A stretch of 20,615 nucleotides of DNA from a virus, in the IMG/VR virus record IMGVR_UViG_3300037322_000105, positions 1-20,615 of that record. The stretch is one strand, 5' to 3'. The position numbers were made by a program, and so were the translations under genes. Under the pieces are notes generated by a model. It searched no databases, was not told the DNA's origin, and was given only the letters and a program-made list of their open reading frames with translations. Below are positions 6,931 through 20,615 of this stretch, one piece after another (within the stretch, counting starts at the first letter, position 1; every line of letters begins with the position of its first letter).

Positions 6931-8166
6931 ATGGACGAAAAATTGTTATTAGAATTAAAGTCAATCCAAAACGGATTAGAGACTAAAAGCGCAATGGAAA
7001 TTAAAGCTGCGTTAGATGCTTTTGAAGTAAAAGCAAGCAAATCCACAGAAGAGGTGAAAGCTACTTTTGCAACTGAATTAAAAGCGGTTACTGACGCAAT
7101 GGAAGTGAAATTTCTTGCAGACATTAAAGCGGTTCAAGATCATGCTGATAAATTGGATATTAAACTGCAAAAAAAAGATGTTCAAACTAAAGGTAACGCA
7201 AGTTTTAACGAGCAATTAGCAACTGCTATTTTAGAAAAATCTACAGATATTGAAGCGTTCAGAGACAAGAAAACAAAGAGCGTTGAATTAGAATTAAAAG
7301 CAGTAGGAGACTTTACAACTGCAAATGTTACAGGTGGTGCCAGATACGGCCAAGTATTTGCTCCGCAAATTATGGGTATTACCGAACGTAAAATGCACAT
7401 GGATCAGATTATACCGGGTGGTACAATTGGTGCAGGAAATTCATTTACGTTTATGCGTGAAGTTGGAAACGGTGAGGGTGCTATTTTGCCAGTTGCAGAG
7501 GGTGCTTTAAAGCCTCAATTCGATTTAGATTTAGAAGAAGCTACGGTGCAAATTGAAACTATTGCCGGTTGGATTCGTGTAACGCGTAAAGCAATGGCAA
7601 ACATTCCAGGATTTATTTCTTACTTACAAAGAAAATTACCAGAATTATTTAGAAAGGTTTTGGATAATCAAATTCTTTACGGTACAGGAGTAACGCCACA
7701 AATTAAAGGAATGTTAGCCGCTGGAAATTTCACAGCGTCAAATGTAGCGATTGCAACTCCATTGATTGAAAAAATTATTTTGGACGTTGCTAGATTAGAA
7801 GATACATTTGAACGTAACGCTGATGCAATTTTATTGCGTCCAGCTGCTTACTACGGTTTTTTCTTAAACAAAGCAGTTGGTTCTGGCGAGTATGATTTGC
7901 CACAGGGTGTAAACATTGTAAATGGTCGTTTATCTTTCTTGGGAATACCAGCTTATCCAACAACTGCTTTAACGGGAACAGATTATGTGGTGATGGATAG
8001 TGAAGGAGTTCAATTGCTTACTCAAGAATCAATGAGAATTGAATTTTTCGAGCAAGATGGAACGAATGTACGTGAGAATAAAGTAACGGTAAGAATCGAA
8101 GGAAACTACGCTCTACCAGTGTACGGCAGCACGTATATAATTCGTGGAAGTACTGCTACAGTATAA
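6931..8166 (+). CDS. Major capsid protein, HK97 fold with N-terminal delta domain
   Basis: This 411-residue protein is the main head subunit. The first 100 or so residues form a highly charged, Ala/Glu/Lys-rich helical region (for example LELKSIQNGLETKSAMEIKA) that acts as built-in scaffold in this family and is removed by the S78 protease encoded just upstream. The mature HK97-fold part begins around 125 (AVGDFTTANVTGGARYGQVF). It includes NSFTFMREVGNGEGAILPVA, an IETIAGWIRVTRKAM strand, LFRKVLDNQILYGTG, and a C-terminal VRIEGNYALPVYGSTYIIRG. The cleavage site cannot be fixed by eye. A strong terminator 19 bases after the stop shows this is the end of the first late unit, consistent with the need for many copies. 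Confidence 0.95.
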   Translation: MDEKLLLELKSIQNGLETKSAMEIKAALDAFEVKASKSTEEVKATFATELKAVTDAMEVKFLADIKAVQDHADKLDIKLQKKDVQTKGNASFNEQLATAILEKSTDIEAFRDKKTKSVELELKAVGDFTTANVTGGARYGQVFAPQIMGITERKMHMDQIIPGGTIGAGNSFTFMREVGNGEGAILPVAEGALKPQFDLDLEEATVQIETIAGWIRVTRKAMANIPGFISYLQRKLPELFRKVLDNQILYGTGVTPQIKGMLAAGNFTASNVAIATPLIEKIILDVARLEDTFERNADAILLRPAAYYGFFLNKAVGSGEYDLPQGVNIVNGRLSFLGIPAYPTTALTGTDYVVMDSEGVQLLTQESMRIEFFEQDGTNVRENKVTVRIEGNYALPVYGSTYIIRGSTATV

Positions 8167-8185: not shown

Positions 8186-8221
8186 AAAACCCTTTGATAA
8201 CATATATCAAAGGGTTTTTTT
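8186..8221 (+). terminator. Strong intrinsic terminator after capsid gene
   Basis: AAAACCCTTTGATA (8186-8199) and TATCAAAGGGTTTT (8205-8218) form a perfect 14-bp stem around a five-base loop ACATA, and a run of T continues to 8221. It ends the terminase-to-capsid unit and lies directly before the homing endonuclease. Confidence 0.9.
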
Positions 8222-8222
8222 G

Positions 8223-8237
8223 TACGTTTACTTTATG
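8223..8237 (+). promoter_or_regulatory. TACGTTTA box four bases before endonuclease ATG
   Basis: TACGTTTA (8223-8230), a one-base variant of TAnnTTTG, is followed by cttt and then ATG. The geometry is the same as at the portal gene. It could restart transcription after the terminator. No -33 element is evident. Confidence 0.3.
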
Positions 8238-8969
8238 GAAGGAATATATAAAATAACAAGTCCAACGGGACGTATTTATATTGGTCAAAGTATCGATGTA
8301 GAAAAAAGACGTAGAATGTACGTAAAAAATCATTGTATAAAACAAACTAAGTTATACGCTAGTTTGGTTAAATATGGTTTTGATAAACACTTATTTGAAG
8401 TAATAGAGGAGTGTGTTTGGGGGTTGTTAAACGAACGTGAGGAATATTGGATAGAATTTTACAATACCTTCAATAGTGACAGTGGAATGAACCTTTCTTC
8501 AGGAGGTTTAAATAAAAGAGTGTCTGAGGAAACTAAAAAGAAAATAAGCATAGGTAATTCAAGAAAAAAAAGACCTGATTTATCATTAATGAATAGAACC
8601 CAAAAAAGAATACCGAGTAAAGAAACTATTGCAAAAGGTTTAGAAAGTAGAAAAGGTTTTAAACATAGCGAAGAGAGCAAAATAATTATGCGTAATAAAG
8701 CACTATTAAGACCTCTAGTGAGTGAAGAAACAAAAGCTTTAATGTCTAAAAATAGAAAAGGAATAAAGCCTACTGAAGAAATGAAAAAAGGTATCTTATT
8801 AGCTCGTTTAAATAGCGAAAAAACAGGCAAAACTGTTGTTAATATAAATACAAATGAAGAATATAAAAATTTAACTTATCTTTGTAATTTAAAAGGTTAT
8901 GTTTATGGAACTATGAAAAAGAAAATGAGAGGTGATTCTAAAAACAATACTGATTACAAATACAAATAA
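8235..8969 (+). CDS. Free-standing GIY-YIG homing endonuclease with NUMOD3-like repeats
   Basis: This 244-residue protein is a mobile DNA-cutting enzyme that spreads its own gene into related phages lacking it. The N-terminal nuclease domain has GIY (3-5) and YIG (15-17), the Arg cluster KRRR (24-27), a glutamate-containing LNEREEYWIEFYNT segment (about 71-84) and GMNLSSGG, all typical. Residues about 97-185 contain several NUMOD3-like DNA-binding units (VSEETKKKIS, KHSEESKIIM, VSEETKALMS, KPTEEMKKGI). The last 45 residues (VVNINTNEEYKNLTYLCNLK and onward) look like NUMOD1. I chose ATG 8235 over the TTG at 8220, because GIY motifs lie near the N-terminus in this family and the earlier codons fall in the terminator T-run. 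It is not inside an intron and interrupts the capsid-to-connector order. Confidence 0.92.
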   Translation: MEGIYKITSPTGRIYIGQSIDVEKRRRMYVKNHCIKQTKLYASLVKYGFDKHLFEVIEECVWGLLNEREEYWIEFYNTFNSDSGMNLSSGGLNKRVSEETKKKISIGNSRKKRPDLSLMNRTQKRIPSKETIAKGLESRKGFKHSEESKIIMRNKALLRPLVSEETKALMSKNRKGIKPTEEMKKGILLARLNSEKTGKTVVNINTNEEYKNLTYLCNLKGYVYGTMKKKMRGDSKNNTDYKYK

Positions 8970-9008
8970 TTTATTTCTTTTTCATAGTTAGTTATTTTTT
9001 TTAGTTTT

Positions 9009-9039
9009 AAACCCGCTACAATTAAGTAGCGGGTTTTTT
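9009..9039. terminator. Bidirectional terminator between convergent genes
   Basis: AAACCCGCTAC (9009-9019) pairs with GTAGCGGGTTT (9026-9036) around a six-base loop, an 11-bp GC-rich stem followed by T through 9039. The plus-strand endonuclease ends at 8969 and the minus-strand cassette ends at 9044. The hairpin therefore serves plus-strand messages well and can also serve minus-strand ones, although the T-run on that side is shorter. Confidence 0.87.
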
Positions 9040-9043
9040 GTAA

Positions 9044-9277
9044 TTACTCTTTTTTATCAATCATTACACTACAGCTTAACTCCCAACCTTCTGGATATTG
9101 TTCGTTTCCGCTATCACAATCAACAATTTTTAAATTAACTAACTTTGCCAAGTCATTTATATGAAGTCGGTTTAAAAAGCCTTTAATAAATTGCTTTTTC
9201 ATTATTTCACGCGAACCATCGTTAATATCGTACGTGTGTTTTAACTTAATTTCTGAATGTTTTAGTTTTGTTTTCAT
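9044..9277 (-). CDS. Small unrecognised protein, last gene of antisense cassette 1
   Basis: This 77-residue protein is not one I recognise. It has a Lys-rich N-terminus (MKTKLKHSEIKLKHTYDIND), a helical middle (KKQFIKGFLNRLHINDLAKL, about 27-46) and an acidic end with PEGWELSCSVMIDKKE. No membrane segment or signal peptide is seen. It is the last of five minus-strand genes. Its ATG overlaps the upstream stop in ATGA, and it ends five bases from the shared terminator. Its start lies inside the 14-base sequence AAACCATGAAAACA that also surrounds two other starts in this cassette. Being antisense to the late operon, it was probably acquired as a moron. Confidence 0.65.
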   Translation of the reverse strand: MKTKLKHSEIKLKHTYDINDGSREIMKKQFIKGFLNRLHINDLAKLVNLKIVDCDSGNEQYPEGWELSCSVMIDKKE

Positions 9278-9282
9278 GGTTT
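9269..9282 (-). repeat. Copy 1 of 14-base start-codon repeat AAACCATGAAAACA
   Basis: On the minus strand this reads AAACCATGAAAACA and contains the ATG of the 77-residue gene. Identical copies occur at 9532-9545 and 9886-9899, each at a gene start. Confidence 0.8.
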
Positions 9283-9540
9283 TTTATGTAAAATGTTTAA
9301 TAGTTCCAATACAAAACTTTCTGAAAGTAATTTTTCTGTATTTGGTTGTTTTTCAGGGATCTTTTCGATAAAGTTTAGCATTTGCACAGGCAAGCCCATC
9401 ACTTCGTTGTTAACAAATACCATTATTGAGCTAAAACCTTTTTTAGTTACTAAATAAAATCCTGCTGTCGGGTAATTTTTTAGATCATCAATTTTATCAC
9501 ATTTAGAAAGTTCTATTTCATATACTCTAATTGTTTTCAT
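9274..9540 (-). CDS. Small unrecognised protein, antisense cassette 1
   Basis: This 88-residue soluble-looking protein has no assignable function. The N-terminal half alternates strand-like segments: MKTIRVYEIELSKCDKIDDL, YPTAGFYLVTKKGFSSIMVF and VNNEVMGLPVQM. This suggests a small beta or alpha-beta domain. The C-terminal 25 residues form an amphipathic helix (EKLLSESFVLELLNILHKKP). It overlaps the gene before it by 14 bases and the gene after it by 4 bases, so translation is probably coupled through the cassette. Its start is embedded in AAACCATGAAAACA. Confidence 0.65.
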   Translation of the reverse strand: MKTIRVYEIELSKCDKIDDLKNYPTAGFYLVTKKGFSSIMVFVNNEVMGLPVQMLNFIEKIPEKQPNTEKLLSESFVLELLNILHKKP

Positions 9541-9670
9541 GGTTTCTCATTTGTTTTAATACTTGTTTGTACAAAAAATTTTTATAATCATTTGTTAATT
9601 CTCCTTTTGGTAGCACGTAAAAAGTAAGCCTTATTAAATACATAGCTATTAATTTTCTAAATTTTTTCAT
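9527..9670 (-). CDS. 47-residue basic protein, antisense cassette 1
   Basis: This short minus-strand frame encodes 47 residues: a basic and hydrophobic N-terminal half (MKKFRKLIAMYLIRLTFYVL) and a polar, basic C-terminal half (NDYKNFLYKQVLKQMRNHEN). The first half could be an amphipathic or membrane-associated helix, but the charges at Lys, Arg and Arg14 make a true membrane span uncertain. It begins in an ATGA overlap with the upstream 45-residue gene and ends 14 bases inside the next gene. Those nested boundaries are the main evidence that it is real. Function unknown. Confidence 0.5.
   Translation of the reverse strand: MKKFRKLIAMYLIRLTFYVLPKGELTNDYKNFLYKQVLKQMRNHENN
9532..9545 (-). repeat. 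Copy 2 of 14-base start-codon repeat
   Basis: This is identical to the copies at 9269-9282 and 9886-9899 and contains the ATG of the 88-residue gene. Confidence 0.8.
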
Positions 9671-9804
9671 AAATCTAAAGTTTTTATAAATTTTAAAATT
9701 GTTTGCTTATACTTTGGGTTAATCCAAAAAGATACATTTTTCTTGTCTCCTTTAGGGCGTCCCGAGCCTTCTCTTTTGCCTCCGTGAGGTTTTTTGTCTT
9801 GCAT
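9667..9804 (-). CDS. 45-residue GGxREGSGRPKG miniprotein (possible DNA binder)
   Basis: This 45-residue frame reads as a Gly/Arg/Lys-rich N-terminus HGGKREGSGRPKGDKKN (7-23), then a strand-like VSFWINPKY (24-32) and a helix TILKFIKTL (35-43). The GGxREGSGRPKG motif is common at the N-terminus of small phage and plasmid proteins and of some small terminase subunits. The GRPKG core resembles an AT-hook, and the strand-helix remainder could be the beginning of a ribbon-helix-helix. A DNA-binding role is therefore a reasonable inference, not shown. It follows the 28-residue frame by three bases and overlaps the next gene by four. A related motif occurs in the second antisense cassette at 11446-11598. 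Confidence 0.6.
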   Translation of the reverse strand: MQDKKPHGGKREGSGRPKGDKKNVSFWINPKYKQTILKFIKTLDL

Positions 9805-9807
9805 AAG

Positions 9808-9894
9808 TTATCTGTACTTTAAAGGGGTTAATAAATGGATTGATACTATAATTACAACTACAATTAATGCGATAATTTTCTCTGATGTTTTCAT
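9808..9894 (-). CDS. 28-residue single-pass membrane peptide, first gene of antisense cassette 1
   Basis: This is the first frame after the minus-strand promoter. It encodes a short charged start (MKTSEK), one strongly hydrophobic stretch of about 14 residues (IIALIVVVIIVSIHLL, about 7-22) and a basic end (PLKYR). The placement 12 bases after a well-formed -7 box, the AAACCATGAAAACA start context shared with two other genes, and the membrane-segment pattern support it despite its size. Function unknown. Very small membrane peptides in prophages can act in exclusion or toxicity, but nothing here shows that. Confidence 0.5.
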   Translation of the reverse strand: MKTSEKIIALIVVVIIVSIHLLTPLKYR

Positions 9895-9899
9895 GGTTT
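9886..9899 (-). repeat. Copy 3 of 14-base start-codon repeat
   Basis: This is identical to the other two copies and contains the ATG of the 28-residue membrane peptide at the head of the cassette. Confidence 0.8.
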
Positions 9900-9905
9900 T
9901 TTTAT

Positions 9906-9936
9906 CAAAGATAATATAATATTTGAATTAAACAAT
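9906..9936 (-). promoter_or_regulatory. Bacteroidetes-type promoter for antisense cassette 1
   Basis: Read on the minus strand, ATTG (9936-9933), a 19-base spacer and TATCTTTG (9913-9906) match the known Bacteroidetes pattern of -33 TTTG or TTG, 19-21 bases, then -7 TAnnTTTG. The first ATG of the cassette lies 11 bases further on. This is the best promoter match in the window. Confidence 0.75.
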
Positions 9937-9966
9937 AGTGAAATCAAATTATTTTAAATTAATTTG

Positions 9967-9974
9967 TATATTTA
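9967..9974 (+). promoter_or_regulatory. Plus-strand TATATTTA box before head-tail joining genes
   Basis: TATATTTA lies 22 bases before the ATG at 9997 and about 30 bases from the minus-strand promoter, which makes a divergent pair. It could restart the late operon after the antisense cassette. A -33 element is not evident, so confidence is modest. Confidence 0.4.
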
Positions 9975-9996
9975 CATAACTTTAAAACCTAAAGAC

Positions 9997-10116
9997 ATGA
10001 AACTAATACTTTTAAGAGATCACATTTACGGAAAAAAAGGCGATAAAATAACCGTAGACGCGGAAAAATCAACTTACTTAATTCAATGTGGAATAGCTAA
10101 AATTGACAAAAAATGA
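9997..10116 (+). CDS. 39-residue phage head protein with GDKITV-type motif
   Basis: This frame encodes 39 residues: MKLILLRDHIYGKKGDKITV, then a DAEKSTYLIQCGIAKI segment (21-36) and DKK. The layout of a short strand, a KKGD turn, an ITV strand, an Ala-Glu helix and a CGIA end is common in tiny proteins encoded between capsid and connector genes of HK97-type phages. These are probably small beta-barrel head-associated proteins. It follows a TATATTTA box by 22 bases and shares an ATGA overlap with the next gene. The role is inferred from place and pattern only. Confidence 0.65.
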   Translation: MKLILLRDHIYGKKGDKITVDAEKSTYLIQCGIAKIDKK

Positions 10117-10253
10117 TAAGATTTGTAAAAGAAGGTTTTGACACATTAAAGTCTAAATCCATAAAAATAGGTGAGGTTATCGACTTGGGAGAACTTAGAA
10201 ATAAATTAGCAATCGAAAGGGGTTTAGCGGTTGCAGAAAAACAAAAGAAATGA
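10113..10253 (+). CDS. 46-residue phage head protein related to preceding gene
   Basis: This 46-residue frame begins in the ATGA overlap with the previous gene and ends in an ATGA overlap with the connector gene. Its plan resembles the 39-residue neighbour: an N-terminal strand (MIRFVKEGFDTL), a SIKIGEVIDLGELRNKLAIE core (16-35) and RGLAVAEKQKK. Compared with the neighbour, IGEVIDL takes the place of KGDKITV, and ERGLAV the place of QCGIAK. The two could be products of an old duplication or bind the same head surface. No function is proven. Confidence 0.65.
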   Translation: MIRFVKEGFDTLKSKSIKIGEVIDLGELRNKLAIERGLAVAEKQKK

Positions 10254-10696
10254 GTTATTTAAACGTAATTACGTTAGAGCAAGCGAAGGTATATTTAAGA
10301 ATTGACGAAGATCAAACCGAAACAGACAACGAAATAATCGCAATGATAAATGGCGCATTTTCATTTATCGAAAAACGAACTAATCATATTATTTTCCCTC
10401 GTGAAAAAACATATTACGGCGAGCATAATATAAACGTCTATGATTTTCCAATAAACGAACCATTACCAATTGATAATATAAGGCTAAAGTATGCTAATTA
10501 TTCACGTTTCACGCTTACCGATGAAATAACGCTAAACGTTGGATATGAATTACCGTTAAATGTCCCAGAAGAACTAAAACAAGCAGCTTTACAAATGTTA
10601 AAAGTATGGTACTATGAAGCTGAAAAACAAGTTAATACTACATTAATTCCTGATTCAGTACTTATGGCATTAGACGTAAATAAGAGATTTGTATGA
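10250..10696 (+). CDS. Head-tail connector (HK97 gp6-like adaptor)
   Basis: This 148-residue protein fits the gp6-like adaptor family, which forms a ring under the portal. The diagnostic start is NVITLEQAKVYLRIDEDQTE (5-24), followed by a TDNEIIAMINGAFSFIEKRT helix (25-44). This is the usual pattern of an early LRID motif and a helix that tracks along the portal. A strand-rich centre (YYGEHNINVYDFPINEPLPI) and a C-terminal helix (EELKQAALQMLKVWYYEAEK) complete it. It overlaps genes on both sides by four bases, within the run connector, closure, completion seen in many siphoviruses. Confidence 0.85.
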   Translation: MSYLNVITLEQAKVYLRIDEDQTETDNEIIAMINGAFSFIEKRTNHIIFPREKTYYGEHNINVYDFPINEPLPIDNIRLKYANYSRFTLTDEITLNVGYELPLNVPEELKQAALQMLKVWYYEAEKQVNTTLIPDSVLMALDVNKRFV

Positions 10697-11019
10697 TAAG
10701 TAGAAAATACAATAAAATAATTGAACTATACAATTTAGAACCAATTAGCGACGAGTTTGGAGGGTTTACAGTCGTGCCTAAATCTATGGGTAAAAAATGG
10801 GCGCATATTGAAACGAAAGTAAGTGTTAGAAATACCGATAATGGGAATGTAGAAAACTATCAAACTATTATCATTTCGTTTAGAGGTCGTGGCTTAAATT
10901 TATACGTAAAGACCGACTATATTGTGTATAAGTCAAAAAAATACGTAATTAATAAAATTGACGATGTAGATTTAACAGGGATTGATTTAACCGCATTTTG
11001 CACAGAATCCGATGGCTAA
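10693..11019 (+). CDS. Head closure protein (head-tail joining, gp7/SPP1 gp16-like)
   Basis: This 108-residue protein has the size and strand-rich layout of phage head-tail joining or head closure proteins, which plug the portal-adaptor channel. Visible features are an N-terminal DEFGGFTVVPKSMGKKWAHI (20-39), typical of the first beta hairpin, then VENYQTIIISFRGRG (53-67) and LYVKTDYIVYKSKKYVINKI (70-89). It starts in an ATGA overlap with the connector gene and overlaps the tail completion gene by 8 bases. Sequence conservation in this family is low, so much of the call rests on order and length. Confidence 0.75.
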   Translation: MISRKYNKIIELYNLEPISDEFGGFTVVPKSMGKKWAHIETKVSVRNTDNGNVENYQTIIISFRGRGLNLYVKTDYIVYKSKKYVINKIDDVDLTGIDLTAFCTESDG

Positions 11020-11449
11020 AGTAGGGATAAAAGGCATTTCAAGTACAATAAACGAATTGCGTAAATTTGGAGCTAAAGCCGATAAGATAATTAGTGAAAA
11101 TATTGAAGCTACATCACAAGAAATGGTACAAAAAGCCGTTTCATTAGTACCTAAAGACTTTGGTAAATTAGCTCAATCGATACAATCGGTAAAAGTAGAC
11201 AATTTACATTACAGAGTTGAAGCTGGCGGGGGAGTCGCTCCTTACGCTCCTTATGTTGAATATGGCACGGGCGGGCTTTTTGATGTGCCAAAAGAATTTA
11301 AAAAGCAGGCGTCACTTGCTAAAGGTAAAAAAATAAAAAAAGTTAATTTAAAGCCACGGCCTTACATGTATCCCGCTTTTGTTTTTGGTTCTAAAGATTT
11401 ACTAGAAAATTTAAAAAAGGAATTGGAAGTATTGACAAAAGCCACCTAG
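11012..11449 (+). CDS. HK97 gp10-like tail completion protein
   Basis: This 145-residue protein matches the HK97 gp10 family, which acts at the head-tail interface during tail attachment. The signature blocks are the VPKDFGKLAQSI segment (about 47-58) and APYAPYVEYGTGG (about 76-88). A central Gly-rich region and PRPYMYPAF (about 115-123) follow. All occur in the family order. The stop codon TAG (11447-11449) lies inside the left arm of the terminator hairpin and overlaps the antiparallel stop of the minus-strand miniprotein gene. This ends the head-joining unit; the tail genes resume after the second antisense cassette. Confidence 0.9.
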   Translation: MAKVGIKGISSTINELRKFGAKADKIISENIEATSQEMVQKAVSLVPKDFGKLAQSIQSVKVDNLHYRVEAGGGVAPYAPYVEYGTGGLFDVPKEFKKQASLAKGKKIKKVNLKPRPYMYPAFVFGSKDLLENLKKELEVLTKAT

Positions 11450-11464
11450 ATAATAGGTGGCTTT
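11438..11464. terminator. Bidirectional terminator holding both convergent stop codons
   Basis: AAAGCCACCTA (11438-11448) pairs with TAGGTGGCTTT (11454-11464) around a five-base loop, an 11-bp perfect stem. T-rich sequence follows on both strands (CTTTGTTT on plus, CTTTTG on minus), although neither run is long. The plus gene stops at 11449 and the minus gene at 11446, both inside the left arm. Confidence 0.8.
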
Positions 11465-11598
11465 GTTTCTAAATCTTTAATAAATTTATCTATTTCAGCT
11501 TTATTCCCTTTAAAAGTCCAAAATCTAAGTAAGCTTTTGCCTGTACTTTTTCGCCCGCTGTTTTCTCTAAAGCCGCCCCATTTGTTTTTCTCTTCCAT
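11446..11598 (-). CDS. 50-residue GGFRENSGR miniprotein, antisense cassette 2
   Basis: This 50-residue minus-strand frame reads MEEKNKWGGFRENSGRKSTG, then KSLLRFWTFKGNKAEIDKFI (21-40) and a short KDLETKPPII end. The WGGFRENSGRKSTG block is a diverged form of the GGKREGSGRPKG motif in the 45-residue protein at 9667-9804. The following strand and helix also line up (RFWTFKGNKAEIDKFIKDLE against SFWINPKYKQTILKFIKTLD). The two are therefore probably homologous miniproteins, perhaps DNA-binding. The stop shares CTAG with the stop of the convergent gp10-like gene, inside the terminator stem. It lies four bases after the 112-residue gene and is probably expressed with it. Confidence 0.65.
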   Translation of the reverse strand: MEEKNKWGGFRENSGRKSTGKSLLRFWTFKGNKAEIDKFIKDLETKPPII

Positions 11599-11602
11599 TT
11601 GA

Positions 11603-11941
11603 TTATAGCCCCTCTTTTAAATCTATAGAATATAAAAAAGCCTCTTTATAACTTTCAAAGCAAAAGAAATTAAAATTTATATCTTGATCGTTGATTCTTT
11701 TAATGTGATTTTTAAAATAGTTAGCCACATCAAATAAATCTTTAGAAATAAAAAAAGATGGATTTTCTTCTTCAATTTCGCAATCTTTCCAGCTTTGAAA
11801 ACAAACAAAAACTTTATCTTCACTTAGTTCAAGTTGTTCTTCAATTAATACAAAATAACGATCTTGTATTTCATTTTTTGTAAATTCATAAGTTGGAATA
11901 TCTCCAGCTTGATTTGATGTGCTAATTGTTATTTTTGCCAT
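11603..11941 (-). CDS. 112-residue unrecognised protein, antisense cassette 2
   Basis: I do not recognise this protein. It is acidic and soluble-looking. The N-terminal part (MAKITISTSNQAGDIPTYEF) is strand-like, and the middle (VLIEEQLELSEDKVFVCFQS) is rich in Glu. The C-terminal third holds many aromatic residues (FFISKDLFDVANYF, INFNFFCFESYKEAFLYSID). No signal peptide or membrane segment is present. It is transcribed against the late genes from a promoter-like TATGTTTG box 20 bases upstream and is followed by the miniprotein gene. Small acidic moron products sometimes counter host defences by mimicking DNA, but nothing specific supports that here. Confidence 0.68.
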   Translation of the reverse strand: MAKITISTSNQAGDIPTYEFTKNEIQDRYFVLIEEQLELSEDKVFVCFQSWKDCEIEEENPSFFISKDLFDVANYFKNHIKRINDQDINFNFFCFESYKEAFLYSIDLKEGL

Positions 11942-15378: not shown

Positions 15379-17580
15379 ATGGCAAAGAAAATAATCATAA
15401 GTTTTGCGAGTAATCTAACGGTTGGGCAAACATTAGGTTACAATATAAAAGTAAATAATCAAAATATTGCTTATAATTTATTAGGCAATAATGTTTTGAT
15501 CTTGAATTTTAGTAACAATAACAGTACTGCAAGTAACGTTAAAATAAGATCAACAGCAGACGAAACTTTAAACGAGCTTTTTTTGGTTCTAAACACGTAT
15601 TGGGACGCGAACGGAGTTACTTATTCCTTAGTTGGCAATACAATTGAAGTAAATGTATTTAGCGAAAATGCAACTATAGAATCGGTAATTAATCCAGTTA
15701 GTATTATAGTTTCTATTATTGATATTGTAATAAATTCAGAGCCTACACTATTCTATTTCATGGAATATTCAGATCCCTTAAACGTGCCATATAGGGTAAA
15801 TATTTATAAAAAAAATAATAATATTGCACCTAGATTAATTTACGGTTATGCGACTTTGGAATCGGGAAGCGTGAAAGACAATTTAGATCCAATTCGTGGC
15901 AGTGGGTTAACTTTGAATTTAGAAGCAACTTTAGAGTTAAATTTAGAAGATTTGTATAGTGAAGATGAAAACGAATTTACAGTGCAATTTTACAGAAATA
16001 ATCAATTATTATTTAATGGATTTATTAAGCCCGATGGTGTGTTTCAATCTTTTGTAAATGATCGCTGGGTTATTAATTTAGATTGTGTTGATGGGTTAGG
16101 AATATTGAAAGATTTAGCTTTTGTAAAACCAAACGGATTACAATTTATAGGAAAACAAAGCGCGCTAGAAATTATTTATAATTGTCTTATACGTACAAAT
16201 ATTTCAATGGATTTAAACACTTTTGTAAACATTTATTACGAAGGATTAAATCCGTTAGTCACATTAGATCCATTAACTGAAATATACTTATCAGTAAGCA
16301 GATTTGTAAAAACAGATAAGGAAACAATAATGAATTGTCAAGAGGTTTTAATATCGATTTTGACGTTATTTAAAGCTTCGATAACTCAATTAAATGGAGA
16401 GTGGTATATTTATCGGTCAAACGAATTAAGCGTTAACCCTATAGTCCAATTCAGAAAATACTCAAAGAAAAATAATTTATTTATTGGTGTAAATTCACGT
16501 GATTTAAGAAAAAATTTAGGTAGTCAAATTAATGGTAAATATCCACATCACGCAAATAGCAATCAACAGATTGAAATTAAAGGGAGTGTTTCGGCTTTTC
16601 GTGTAAATTATAAATATGGATTTGAAAAAGGCTTATTCCTTAACTCAGACTTGAGATACACAGGAAACACAAAGCAAAATATTAATTATTTGAATTTTAT
16701 AGAAGGCGACTTAACTAAAGTTTTTGTTGATTCAGAAGCAAATTCTGGGTTACGTTTTTTAATTTTTACATCTAACAATGATAATGCAGTAGTATTAACA
16801 TCAAACAATATTCCTTTATTAATAAATGAAACGATAAAGTTTGAATTTGCCCTTTCGGTTATTGGAGCGAGTGCGGGAATATTAAGATTTAAAATAAGGT
16901 TGGCTAATTTTTTAATGAATAAAGAGGGGGATTGGGTTAATATTGATAACGACAACACGATGTTGACAACTAGGGGGGAATCTTTTGGCTCAATACAATC
17001 TAATCCTTTGCCGGTTTCTGGGAACTTATTTTTTGAAATTTTTAGCCCTAGAAATTTTGCTCAAGGACTTTCAAACATGACTGTTACAAAATTAGACATA
17101 ATAAACACAACTAATCTAAACAACGGCGCACAAGGCGAATTTCACACGGTACAACGACAAAATAGGCCTTCGTCAATTGCTAAGGAAACAGAGGAAATAT
17201 TTAACGGTGATAGCCCTTCTATTGTTTACGAAGGTGCAATATTTAAAGCGGATAAAATAACTCCAACTTCTAAATGGTTCAGGAAATCAAAAGTAGAAAG
17301 CAAACCTATTTTGCAAATATTAGGTGAGGACGTTTTAAGGATGAGCCAAAAGCCTGCTAAAGTATTTTCTGGCGATGTTTATGGGTATATTCCTTATTTA
17401 TCGGTTGTCACTATAGATTCATTAGAGGGTAGTTTCATGGCGATAGAACATTCTTTTGATTCAAAAGCAAATATCACTAAATGCAAATTTTTACAAATAA
17501 TGCATGATGAATTAACGGACTTAAATTATAAGCTAACATTTGATTACGGAAACGTGAATAAAGTCACAATTGTTAGCTAA
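15379..17580 (+). CDS. Large tail tip/hub-like protein
   Basis: This 733-residue protein follows the tape measure by one base and is probably a structural protein of the tail tip. The N-terminal 110 residues are Asn-rich and strand-like. Residues about 120-260 carry a hub-type block: FYFMEYSDPLNVPYRVNIYK, GSGLTLNLEATLELNLEDLY, then LLFNGFIKPDGVF and LDCVDGLGILKDLAFV. The last motifs (a PDG turn and a DGLxxLKDL segment) recur in tail proteins of Bacteroidetes phages and resemble gp27-like or Tal hub domains. The C-terminal part includes FHTVQRQNRPSSIAKETEEI and a final strand domain. No peptidase or lysozyme motif is evident. The hub call is inference; tail structural protein is secure. Confidence 0.7.
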   Translation: MAKKIIISFASNLTVGQTLGYNIKVNNQNIAYNLLGNNVLILNFSNNNSTASNVKIRSTADETLNELFLVLNTYWDANGVTYSLVGNTIEVNVFSENATIESVINPVSIIVSIIDIVINSEPTLFYFMEYSDPLNVPYRVNIYKKNNNIAPRLIYGYATLESGSVKDNLDPIRGSGLTLNLEATLELNLEDLYSEDENEFTVQFYRNNQLLFNGFIKPDGVFQSFVNDRWVINLDCVDGLGILKDLAFVKPNGLQFIGKQSALEIIYNCLIRTNISMDLNTFVNIYYEGLNPLVTLDPLTEIYLSVSRFVKTDKETIMNCQEVLISILTLFKASITQLNGEWYIYRSNELSVNPIVQFRKYSKKNNLFIGVNSRDLRKNLGSQINGKYPHHANSNQQIEIKGSVSAFRVNYKYGFEKGLFLNSDLRYTGNTKQNINYLNFIEGDLTKVFVDSEANSGLRFLIFTSNNDNAVVLTSNNIPLLINETIKFEFALSVIGASAGILRFKIRLANFLMNKEGDWVNIDNDNTMLTTRGESFGSIQSNPLPVSGNLFFEIFSPRNFAQGLSNMTVTKLDIINTTNLNNGAQGEFHTVQRQNRPSSIAKETEEIFNGDSPSIVYEGAIFKADKITPTSKWFRKSKVESKPILQILGEDVLRMSQKPAKVFSGDVYGYIPYLSVVTIDSLEGSFMAIEHSFDSKANITKCKFLQIMHDELTDLNYKLTFDYGNVNKVTIVS

Positions 17581-17588
17581 AAAAATTA

Positions 17589-17603
17589 TATATTTACGAT
17601 ATG
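17589..17603 (+). promoter_or_regulatory. TATATTTA box four bases before tail-tube-like gene ATG
   Basis: TATATTTA (17589-17596), cgat, then ATG at 17601 repeats the geometry seen at 4098. A TTG at 17570-17572 lies 16 bases upstream, a shorter spacing than the usual 19-21. Confidence 0.4.
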
Positions 17604-18101
17604 AAATTTACAAATGGCGAAGATCGAATTTTATACATAAAACTTTTAGGCGTTTTTTTGCCCTTAGGCTGTTTGACTGATAATTCATTTAGCGAAACAG
17701 CAGAAATGATAGATACCACAACTAGAGAAAATAATGGATGGACTTCATCACGTCCTAGTAATCAATCCTATTCTATTTCGTTTAGTGGACTGCAAATAAA
17801 CACAGCTTTAGCGGGTGGTAATTTTAACGTAATATCTTATGACAAACTAAAAGAATTAAAACGAGATAGACAGTTATTAGCTTGGAAAATACAAGGTACT
17901 GATTACCCAGTTGTAGACTATGGAAACTGTTATATAACAGGCGTTTCAGAAGCAAATACAGTAGGCGAATTGATTACCTTTAGCGGTGAATTATCGGGCT
18001 TTGGACGTCCCTATATGACTAGTTTACAATTGGTTTTGTTAAACAATGGAGACCCTACAAAAATAGTACAAGATGGGAATAACAATTTAATACGAGTATA
18101 A
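17601..18101 (+). CDS. Second tail-tube-fold protein, tail tip associated
   Basis: This 166-residue protein has the layout of a TP901-1-like tail tube protein. VFLPLGCLTDNSFSETAEMI (18-37) and DTTTRENNGWTSSRPSNQSY (38-57) open it. A SISFSGLQINTAL strand and LLAWKIQGTDYPVVDYGNCY follow. ITGVSEANTVGELITFSGEL SGFGRP-type residues close the domain. It lines up by eye with the main tube protein at 12473-12931 (PIACLTSNS against PLGCLTDNS; GDELMTFSVTLDGSG against GELITFSGELSGFG). Its position after the hub protein, rather than before the chaperones, suggests it forms a special ring at the tail end or anchors fibres. The alternative is an accessory tube subunit. It stands 20 bases after the hub gene. 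Confidence 0.75.
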   Translation: MKFTNGEDRILYIKLLGVFLPLGCLTDNSFSETAEMIDTTTRENNGWTSSRPSNQSYSISFSGLQINTALAGGNFNVISYDKLKELKRDRQLLAWKIQGTDYPVVDYGNCYITGVSEANTVGELITFSGELSGFGRPYMTSLQLVLLNNGDPTKIVQDGNNNLIRV

Positions 18102-18102
18102 A

Positions 18103-19110
18103 ATGGCAGATTTTACAAGCGTAAGAGTTGGCGAACTGCCACCAGCGATATTTAGCCCTTCTGATTTAATCCCGCACGAAATAGGAGGTTTATTGAAAAG
18201 TGGGACGTTAAGCGATATGGCTACGGCTATTTCGTTAATAATTGGCGCAACTGCTGGTGTAGGATTTAGAGCTGTTCAAGTAAATGACGGCGATACGTTG
18301 CCAACAACGACGCAACAAGAATTTATTTTAGTAGGGCGCGGGACTTATTTTAATGTTGGAGGGGGTGCAACGGTAGTGGCTAATGAAGGTTTAAACGTAT
18401 TAGTTTCAAATGGCACAAATTGGAATTTAGGCGTTGCAATTCCTATTATTACTCCAGAGGTTGTTGTCAAAAATTATAGTCAATTAGTTTTAAGAACGGT
18501 AAACCCGCAAAACTATAGTTTGCCAGATAATACTCAAGTGCAAATTTTACATAAAAATGGTAGTTTTTTATACCCTAATTTCTGGGTGCAAAACGGTAAT
18601 GTGTTAACCATTAACGATGCATTCGACCCCAACGGATTAGACGAAATAGTAATAACGGGAATACAACAAGAAACACAAAACACACAGCCTTTTACAGATG
18701 TTTTATTAAATCAGGTGATAATGCTACAAGTCCCTACTTCTTTTATTAGTTCTAATTTTGAATTGTCAGGTTTAGGAGTTGGCGCATTTACAAAATATGC
18801 AATTTGCAACGGCAATAACGGAACAGAAGATTTTGGAGGACGCACCCCTATAGGATTTGACCCAGTTAGTTATCCTAATTTAGGGTTTAAATTAGGATCT
18901 AAAGACGCTGTAGTTGTTGCTCATAGTCATAATTATACACAGTACACGCTAGATCAAGAAGTGTCTGAAAATGGAAGCGGGGTTAGATCTTTAAATAAAA
19001 ATAATCAGCAAGTGGGAAATTTTTCAACTTCTACCGAAGGAGAAAGCGGAACAGGGAAAAATATGCAACCTTCAATAGTTGTATTATATATAAAAAAAAT
19101 AACTTCTTAA
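18103..19110 (+). CDS. Tail collar-type fibre protein
   Basis: This 335-residue protein is probably a short tail fibre or receptor-binding adapter. The N-terminal 60 residues (MADFTSVRVGELPPAIFSPS, then DLIPHEIGGLLKSGTLSDMA) look like an attachment domain. A strand-rich centre (about 75-195) includes GRGTYFNVGGGATVVANEG, typical of fibre shafts or carbohydrate-binding parts. The C-terminus resembles a phage tail collar domain: YAICNGNNGTEDFGGRTPIG (from about residue 229), then AHSHNYTQYTL and a final NMQPSIVVLYIKKI. The His-Ser-His residues and the MQPSIVV ending are typical of that family, in which they can bind metal ions. It starts one base after the preceding stop. Confidence 0.83.
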   Translation: MADFTSVRVGELPPAIFSPSDLIPHEIGGLLKSGTLSDMATAISLIIGATAGVGFRAVQVNDGDTLPTTTQQEFILVGRGTYFNVGGGATVVANEGLNVLVSNGTNWNLGVAIPIITPEVVVKNYSQLVLRTVNPQNYSLPDNTQVQILHKNGSFLYPNFWVQNGNVLTINDAFDPNGLDEIVITGIQQETQNTQPFTDVLLNQVIMLQVPTSFISSNFELSGLGVGAFTKYAICNGNNGTEDFGGRTPIGFDPVSYPNLGFKLGSKDAVVVAHSHNYTQYTLDQEVSENGSGVRSLNKNNQQVGNFSTSTEGESGTGKNMQPSIVVLYIKKITS

Positions 19111-19122
19111 TTAAACAAAAAA

Positions 19123-20615
19123 ATGAAAAAGTATTTATTATTATTATTAGCGGTTACAGGATTTGCGCAAACAAATCCTACAGCGTTTAACAAGTTAAGA
19201 ATTACCCAAAATATTGAGGATAATTTAGCAAATCGCGTAGTAGTGCAAGATCCAGTTACAGGAGAATTAAAATGGGTTTTAAAATCTTCTATAGCTTCTA
19301 ACGTTCCACAAGCAACAGCAACAGTATCAGGAACGGTCAGGATTACAACGGCGGAAATAAATCCACAAGTTCCAACAGTTTCAATAGTTAATAATTTGCT
19401 TAATGCTAAAGTAGATAAAACAACTACTGTTAACGGTCAAGCGTTAAGCGGGAATATTACAATAGTGACAGGAACTGTAAACAGCACCGATGCGCAGTTA
19501 AGAGATAGAACCACGCATACAGGCGTACAGACATCTTCTACTATTTCAGATATTCAAAGTACGATCACTAATAATACGGCTGTTTTGGCTAATACAGCAA
19601 AGGCTGGTATTACAACGGCTCAAAGTAATGCGATTGTGGCTAATACTGCTAAAACAACAAACGCCACTCACATAGGAGACGTAACAGGCTCAACAACTTT
19701 AACCTTAGCAACAGTAAATTCAAATATAGGAAGTTTTGGAAACTCAACAACTGTTCCTACAGTTACAGTTAATGCAAAAGGATTAGTTACTGCTGTATCA
19801 GCAACTGCTATTCCTACAGCTAATACAACTACTACTGGACTATTAACTGCAACAAATTGGAACACTTTTAATTCAAAAGCAAATACTTCTGCATTATCCG
19901 CTTATTTACCATTAATAGGAGGGACTTTAACGGGGCCTTTAAATATAGGAAATTTAAGTACTACAATTGAATATTTCTTAGACATTCCTAGTAATACAGA
20001 AACATGGGTTAACATCGGAACATTTATGAATCGTTTTTCTGCACAAATTCAAACTCAAATTACTTCAGCTTCTTCAGAAGAAGAATCGGTAATTGACTTA
20101 CTTGGTACTTATTACATTGATAAAACTAATATTAATGTTAAAAGACAAACTTACACATCCCCTTCTCTTTTAGAAGTTAGAGTTACTGGAACAGAAGGGA
20201 GTAATCAAACAGTTTTTATAAGAATTCGGTCAAATGAAGCAAATAACTCTATAAGATTTAGAGTTATATCAAGCAGAGGATTAGTCAGTATTTCAAATAC
20301 AATTACAACAGCACAAACAGGTGGAGCTTTTTACATAAATAATAACACCCGTGTAACAGGAATGAATACTGATCTTGACATAGTAGGTAATGGAAAGTTT
20401 AGTGGTTCAGTTACAGCAACCTCGTTCTTCCAATCCTCCGACATTCGTTTAAAAAATATAATCAAACGTGACGGTGATGTAATTTATTACACTTGGAAAG
20501 ACAAAAGAGACACTAAAACTCACATAGGCTACATAGCCCAAAAAGTAAGAGCAACAAATCCCGATCAAGTAAACAAGGACGATAACGGGTATTTATCTGT
20601 TAATTACATAGAAAT
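19123..20615 (+). CDS. Tail fibre with signal peptide and C-terminal S74 chaperone domain (3' truncated by window)
   Basis: The frame is open from ATG 19123 to the window end, giving 497 residues. Residues 1-15 (MKKYLLLLLAVTGFAQ) look like a Bacteroidetes Sec signal peptide with cleavage near FA/Q, unusual for a tail fibre. The shaft has NTAK-type repeats (152-177), GDVTGS (185-190), a GSFGNSTTVPTVTVNAKGLV block (about 203-222) of the kind widespread in phage fibres, and a LIGGTLTGPL turn (264-273). A FFQSSDIRLKNI block (435-446) starts an intramolecular chaperone/peptidase S74 domain. Ser439-Asp440 are at the self-cleavage position, and IGYIAQKV follows. In this family the domain guides trimer folding and is then cut off. 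It begins 12 bases after the collar fibre, behind an A-rich leader. Confidence 0.87.
   Translation, partial: MKKYLLLLLAVTGFAQTNPTAFNKLRITQNIEDNLANRVVVQDPVTGELKWVLKSSIASNVPQATATVSGTVRITTAEINPQVPTVSIVNNLLNAKVDKTTTVNGQALSGNITIVTGTVNSTDAQLRDRTTHTGVQTSSTISDIQSTITNNTAVLANTAKAGITTAQSNAIVANTAKTTNATHIGDVTGSTTLTLATVNSNIGSFGNSTTVPTVTVNAKGLVTAVSATAIPTANTTTTGLLTATNWNTFNSKANTSALSAYLPLIGGTLTGPLNIGNLSTTIEYFLDIPSNTETWVNIGTFMNRFSAQIQTQITSASSEEESVIDLLGTYYIDKTNINVKRQTYTSPSLLEVRVTGTEGSNQTVFIRIRSNEANNSIRFRVISSRGLVSISNTITTAQTGGAFYINNNTRVTGMNTDLDIVGNGKFSGSVTATSFFQSSDIRLKNIIKRDGDVIYYTWKDKRDTKTHIGYIAQKVRATNPDQVNKDDNGYLSVNYIE

Follow-up and report, generated by a model that had tools for sequence, protein, structure and literature searches.

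Can a tailed phage send its tail fibre out of the cytoplasm and still build it into the virion? Tailed-phage assembly is regarded as cytoplasmic, and the question is raised by the last gene of the DNA analysed here, a 20.6-kb virus record from IMG/VR (20,615 nucleotides, referred to as the window), which encodes a putative tail fibre headed by a predicted Sec signal peptide. A sequence-only reading of this gene had suggested that the protein might be a fibre exported and attached late, a decoy or exclusion protein, a captured host surface protein, or a fibre whose attachment segment mimics a signal.

The window and its fibre gene

The window carries genes for portal, protease, capsid, tail tube, tape measure, baseplate, adapter and fibre in the usual order (Table 1). 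Just 3' of the capsid gene, a TTG-start ORF (8220-8969) with GIYKITSPTGRIYIGQS resembles by eye a GIY-YIG homing endonuclease with NUMOD-like repeats. The fibre frame opens with an ATG and remains open up to the end of the contig, so that the C-terminus of the protein is missing; the complete homologue in contig L002 is 657 aa long. Its position after the tube and adapter genes and its homology to virion fibres identify the ORF as a tailed-phage fibre, and matches of its C-terminal end to PHROG virion and long-tail-fibre families bear out the earlier description of a fibre-like protein. Pelagibacter and Limnohabitans phage proteins share the fibre motif at aa 185-226, and their own N-termini bear no signal.

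Table 1. Features of the 3' part of the window that bear on fibre export.
Feature	Position	Strand	Basis
Baseplate / tail-tip protein, no signal	15379..17580	+	phrog_33803, E=2.5e-186; 42% identity to phage 11b protein
Tail tube protein, no signal	17601..18101	+	PF06199, phrog_1407
Tail adapter without signal: RVGELPP attachment domain, cap domain, collar-like end	18103..19110	+	Homologous to N-termini of fused fibres, e.g. phage 11b gp46; occupies stand-alone-adapter position
Adapter cap domain, proposed socket for exported fibre	18484..18657	+	HMM matches directly precede signal-bearing fibres, except in L026
Putative exported tail fibre, first 497 aa	19123..20613	+	Open frame; PHROG C-terminal matches; N-terminal module shared with L002 and L003
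Predicted Sec signal peptide MKKYLLLLLAVTGFA, cut before Gln16 (Q-rule)	19123..19167	+	Sequence; rule-based caller and shuffle control
Mature N-terminal stretch QTNPTAFNKLRITQNIEDNLANRVVVQDPVTGELKWVLKSSI, putative docking stretch	19168..19293	+	Kept in L002 and L003
Fibre shaft / repeat region	19294..20430	+	Fibre motif at aa 185-226 common to other phage proteins
S74-like intramolecular chaperone, incomplete	20437..20613	+	PF13884, 22.8 bits, aa 454-483; motif QSSDIRLKN, aa 437-445

The fibre starts with MKKYLLLLLAVTGFA followed by Q. More specifically, its N-terminus MKKYLLLLLAVTGFAQ has K2-K3, a hydrophobic core without charge and F-A/Q at the cut, which fits the Bacteroidetes Q-rule and confirms the Sec signal that had been read there. 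In Bacteroidetes, most signal peptidase I substrates expose a Gln that is cyclised to pyroglutamate (PMC5837995, PMC10653852). The window fibre resembles these Sec substrates in the Gln at its predicted new N-terminus and differs from them in that they are host proteins and it is a phage fibre. No in-frame ATG lies ahead of codon 302, which makes a cytoplasmic form from an internal ATG unlikely, and an internal start was rejected on this ground.

The S74 self-cleaving domain of the sequence-only reading is a weak call. The Ser-Asp motif SSDIRLKN is found in the window fibre, but the domain is weaker than had been stated: PF13884 reaches 22.8 bits against a cut-off of 22.0 on the truncated fibre, covering only aa 454-483 (about half of the profile), and 20.7 bits, under the cut-off, on the complete homologue. 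The S74-like end may be self-cleaving.

The N-terminal module of the window fibre also starts complete fibres in the IMG/VR contigs L002 and L003, with differing C-terminal parts, and its relatives were seen in phage contigs only. L003 belongs to a near relative of the window's phage. L002 comes from another phage, in which the head module is unrelated and of ClpP type; its fibre differs from the window's at 1 of the first 57 residues. Between the window and L003, the 15 codons of the signal show 4 replacements (A10S, V11I, T12G and G13A, all within signal classes) and 2 silent changes, and the next 42 codons 4 replacement and 11 synonymous changes. These counts on both sides of the cut mark the stretch after the cut as the conserved part and indicate purifying selection on this putative docking stretch.

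In both L002 and L003, the lysis genes come after the fibre. They include a small lipoprotein with a C-terminal hydrophobic stretch, encoded after the endolysin gene (L002:10285-10746, L003:4347-4805), which is a candidate one-piece (u-) spanin. A second signal-bearing gene lies directly 3' of the first exported fibre in L002 (7974-8792), L058 (12877-13548), L178 (10233-11795) and L044 (16449-16748); by eye, the one in L002 looks similar to an unsignalled 155-aa start that follows the fused L188 fibre (QMVSYTDSQSG..VSNQCMTK).

Signals on the fibre and spike genes of other phages

Signal prediction was extended across homologues with a rule-based caller (signal plus Q at +1) run on unique N-termini. 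The caller was positive for 16 of 63 unique fibre-region genes and, among the remaining genes of these phages, for 2 of 473 (Fisher 2.7e-14); of 26,800 shuffled N-termini, 2 were positive. The sequence-only reading had proposed a check of this kind, and the trait recurs: seven Cellulophaga phages, together with about 20 uncultivated relatives, bear about 31 different Q-rule signals on their fibre or spike genes. These signals are 14-20 residues long, and the only features common to them are the n/h/c pattern, A/G/S at -1 and Q at +1.

Large signal-bearing fibre, spike and lyase genes lie between the tail and lysis genes of phi10:1, phi19:1 and Nekkels (Assiduviridae), of phi19:3, phi13:2 and phi46:3 (Pachyviridae) and of Ingeline (Duneviridae). 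No signals were found on head, tube, tape-measure and portal genes of the seven Cellulophaga phages, the exception seen being a 71-aa phi13:2 gene within the signal-bearing cluster. One signal-plus-docking module, MKHTISIVLFFILSLGLNAQTVEGTVGSDGSLIPYNVS, heads Cellulophaga phage proteins with unrelated C-terminal domains, in the manner of the anchors of receptor-binding proteins.

According to GenBank notes, phi10:1 gp91-94 and phi19:1 gp101-104 (eight proteins) are virion proteins by MS/MS. All eight carry signals, that of phi19:1 gp104 being weaker and with a non-Q cut. This evidence for virion membership concerns other phages, whose fibres are non-homologous to the window's, and envelope carry-over into virion preparations may account for the listings. 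In phi19:1 gp101, the intact peptide across the cut is IFSILILLSCFYINAQGVAPLVDQVR and the predicted cleaved start pGlu-GVAPLVDQVR; for phi10:1 gp94, the predicted cleaved start is pE-TVEGTVGSDGSLIPYNVSGGLDETAVDTK.

The trait is not general. Both phi4:1 and the crAss-like phi14:2 encode lyase homologues with different N-termini that lack a signal, and no signal was found on the fibre or tail genes of Maribacter phage Colly, Olleya phage Harreka, Polaribacter phages P12002L and Leef, FCL-2 and Bacteroides phage B124-14. Because the signal is missing from many flavophage fibres, export is not required for infection and the trait is a mosaic one. Q-rule genes also occur outside the fibre region, where they are possibly envelope-modifying: one in phage FCL-2 (L070, 45363-45806), VGIATTTPTETLDVNG, is like host S74 surface proteins, and one in phage 6H (L071, 8153-8707) has DUF4468.

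A further line of evidence concerns exposure to the periplasm. O-glycosylation in Bacteroidota targets Asp-Ser/Thr-hydrophobic sites of proteins located outside the cytoplasm (PMC12871550). A set of 30 non-redundant exported phage proteins contains the sequon D[ST][AILVMT] 31 times versus 87 expected (z -6.6), in a comparison that followed an initial look aimed at testing enrichment. The exported proteins showed no depletion of the E, N, Q and G versions of the sequon, of the reversed motif or of D[NGQ][AILVMT]. Before residues other than AILVMT, D[ST] is itself slightly scarce in all classes (0.72-0.84), which makes the share of AILVMT after D[ST] the cleaner measure. This share is 23.5% in exported proteins versus 41.3% both in non-exported fibres (Fisher 6.7e-4) and in other phage proteins (p 5e-5), and 30.8% in host signal-bearing proteins. 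Non-exported fibres thus show no avoidance specific to the sequon. The deficit suggests selection against glycosylation, a pressure that would act only on a fibre reaching the periplasm. Export for the sake of fibre glycosylation was rejected, the sequon being depleted rather than enriched.

Adapters, shafts and the proposed docking site

To compare gene arrangements, we used the baseplate gene as anchor and gathered 50 related contigs, which fall into two main types. In the first, exemplified by phage 11b, a single long fibre without signal contains both the RVGELP attachment domain and the shaft. In the second, an unsignalled adapter of 190-340 aa precedes a signal-bearing fibre without the attachment domain. 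Among fibres of at least 300 aa, 11 have the attachment motif, 15 the signal, 17 neither and none both. An exported fibre lies downstream of a stand-alone adapter in 22 of 23 contigs versus 0 of 14 with a fused adapter-fibre (p 2.5e-9), and held-out contigs from a new adapter scan repeat the pattern (stand-alone 7/7, fused 0/5, p 0.0013); many of the contigs come from one metagenome, so these p-values overstate independence.

Adjacency was scored within 3 kb, as small genes intervene between adapter and exported fibre in L176 (6788-8494), L178 (7104-7931), L181 (6797-7988) and L184 (6792-8341). The L184 insert at 7407, VIGYEDRYQVSNLGNVKSL, resembles a NUMOD4/HNH homing endonuclease, and other inserts recur across contigs. 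Prophage copies were also sought: alignment of the baseplate gene against genome contigs gave no match, and alignment of the tube gave three Chryseobacterium loci, whose fibre genes are without signal.

Exported and fused fibres can share a shaft. Identity between the exported L051 shaft (aa 34-302) and the shaft of the fused, unsignalled L056 (aa 135-401) is 79%, and the exported L033 fibre has 40% and 34% identity to two unsignalled fibres, the second being phage 11b gp46. Phage 11b gp46 and other fused fibres come with the same tail genes and attachment domain as the window phage, and with a shaft homologous to that of exported L033, but keep attachment domain and shaft in one unsignalled protein.

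Stand-alone adapters contain, or end in, a small cap domain. A cap HMM matches adapters directly 5' of signal-bearing fibres and no fused fibre, with L026 as single exception; it was trained on ten of the matched adapters from the same contig set, the window copy included, and the matches outside the training set are L035, L040, L066, L026 and, weakly, L038 and L039, of which L035, L040 and L066 are close kin of training members. In L002, a recognisable cap stands just ahead of the window-type fibre N-terminus, and the occurrence of both in this unrelated phage fits a pair that moves together. No cap domain was found in the Cellulophaga phages, so docking there must differ. The structure model of the adapter is of low confidence (pLDDT 58), and its best fold match, the anchor region of CBA120 TSP4, is weak (E 1.6e-3, TM 0.24).

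The exception is informative in two ways. The L026 fibre (8479-11823, same contig as L190) follows a stand-alone capped adapter and has a docking stretch, LQNPTLGTVKLKNN, that scores 65 against L037 (0/1000 shuffles as high), and it has no signal, which makes it a naturally occurring signal-less variant. A docking stretch without signal implies that the hydrophobic start is not needed for docking. As an unsignalled fibre after a stand-alone adapter, L026 also counts against the export model.

Proposed export of the fibre and its alternatives

The best explanation, and in our judgement a likely one, is a split tail fibre that is exported by Sec and docks on its adapter at lysis. The unsignalled adapter would be added to the tail tip inside the cytoplasm, while the fibre would cross the inner membrane by Sec and be cut by signal peptidase I after Ala15, its new N-terminal glutamine probably being cyclised to pyroglutamate. 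The fibre would trimerise in the periplasm and wait there. No type IX C-terminal secretion domain was found by Pfam and NCBIfam in the exported fibres scanned, including the complete L002 and L025 homologues; type IX export was rejected on this account, and with no recognisable type IX signal the fibre would stay in the periplasm until lysis. Once the cell is opened by holin, endolysin and spanin, the mature N-terminus of the fibre would dock on the adapter cap domain and complete the virion. The Q-rule signal, its confinement to fibre or spike genes, its link with a stand-alone adapter and the avoidance of the sequon support export well; the Sec route, in vivo cleavage, pyroglutamate, periplasmic trimerisation, storage until lysis, the docking partner and docking after lysis are steps that we infer. 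Possible reasons for export are that sticky or enzymatic fibres are kept from the cytoplasm or that folding is assisted by envelope chaperones. Disulphides offer no such reason and were rejected, as cysteine is equally rare in both classes (3.8 per 1000 in exported fibres, 3.9 in non-exported).

An exported, late-attached fibre is accordingly favoured among the earlier suggestions, in that fibre and spike genes repeatedly bear Q-rule signals, virion annotations exist for several of their products, and a signal goes with a separate attachment gene, although attachment after export is something we infer. It could be argued instead that the exported protein is not a virion part and acts as a decoy, exclusion factor or receptor-destroying enzyme on the envelope of the infected or lysogenic cell, like a lysogenic-conversion gene. 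The signal is convincing enough for such a role, some signal-bearing spikes are lyases, and phage precedents exist: lambda carries the gene for Lom, an exported protein of the outer membrane, between its spike and fibre genes (PMC12309495), and P. gingivalis phages have five Q-rule genes without assigned function that were suggested to be outer-membrane modifiers (PMC10367356). The latter are likewise phage-encoded but were not identified there as virion fibres. Lom is likewise a signal-bearing gene in the fibre region, but it is an outer-membrane protein of the host cell and no fibre, and the fibre-type repeats and shaft homology would point away from a Lom-like protein here. We consider a non-virion role unlikely: it would leave stand-alone-adapter phages without a long fibre, an exported shaft is 79% identical to one fused to a tail-attachment domain, and GenBank counts the equivalents in phi10:1 and phi19:1 among the virion proteins by MS/MS.

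Quite improbable, in our view, is a dual fate in which an inefficient signal lets a cytoplasmic fraction enter tails and the exported fraction is used elsewhere or wasted. Ordinary cytoplasmic assembly would be retained, virion detections would still be explained, and L026 is such a fibre existing without signal; yet the signals are strong and under class constraint, codon 302 is not preceded by an internal ATG, the association of signal and stand-alone adapter is left unexplained, and sequon avoidance implies that the exported copy matters. That the hydrophobic start is an attachment segment resembling a signal, on a protein that stays in the cytoplasm, would agree with its apparent replacement of the attachment domain, the two never occurring together in long fibres. 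This is very unlikely, as some 31 unrelated cores of varied length keep signal features only, the conserved docking stretch sits after the cut, L026 has that stretch without a hydrophobic start, and the sequon deficit is specific to signal-bearing proteins. Least probable of all is the capture of a host surface protein. Flavobacteriales chromosomes do encode S74 proteins (40 of 296 genomes), several with Q-rule signals, but the fibre profile gave one match in the 296 genomes, weak and in the C-terminal part, and the N-terminal module has relatives only in phage contigs. The chromosomal S74 proteins with Q-rule signals (e.g. L077, L081, L094 and L099) are of interest in themselves, since S74 chaperones evidently act on exported host proteins too.

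A split, exported fibre has partial parallels. In split-fibre systems, synthesis and joining of the two parts are generally placed in the cytoplasm. Split fibres and anchored tailspikes (e.g. CBA120 TSP4) likewise use a small tail-bound adapter carrying a separate receptor-binding fibre, but here the distal part alone has a signal. Filamentous phages provide virion proteins with Sec signals, pIII and pVIII; they assemble in the envelope without lysis, whereas the window phage is tailed, with head and tail made separately in the cytoplasm. In the open-access literature we found no tailed phage whose virion fibres were reported to bear signal peptides; in the paper on Ingeline, Nekkels and Leef, their lyases are treated as parts of the tail, and the term 'signal peptide' does not appear (PMC8776804).

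Many flavobacterial phages thus probably export their receptor-binding fibres from the cytoplasm and attach them to tails only when the cell bursts. On balance, we also favour the broader proposition that a recurrent class of tailed phages completes its virions outside the cytoplasm, with Sec-exported receptor-binding fibres and enzymatic spikes, periplasmic processing and a fit made only at lysis by a dedicated cap-and-docking pair. If flavobacterial phage fibres do pass through the periplasm, assembly includes an extra-cytoplasmic step, virions could in principle be equipped with fibres from a different lysed cell, and phage host range comes to depend also on periplasmic proteases, on glycosylation and on glutaminyl cyclase. 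A Q-rule signal on the gene after a stand-alone adapter would also be an easy marker for the receptor-binding proteins of Bacteroidota phages, which are mostly annotated as 'hypothetical'.
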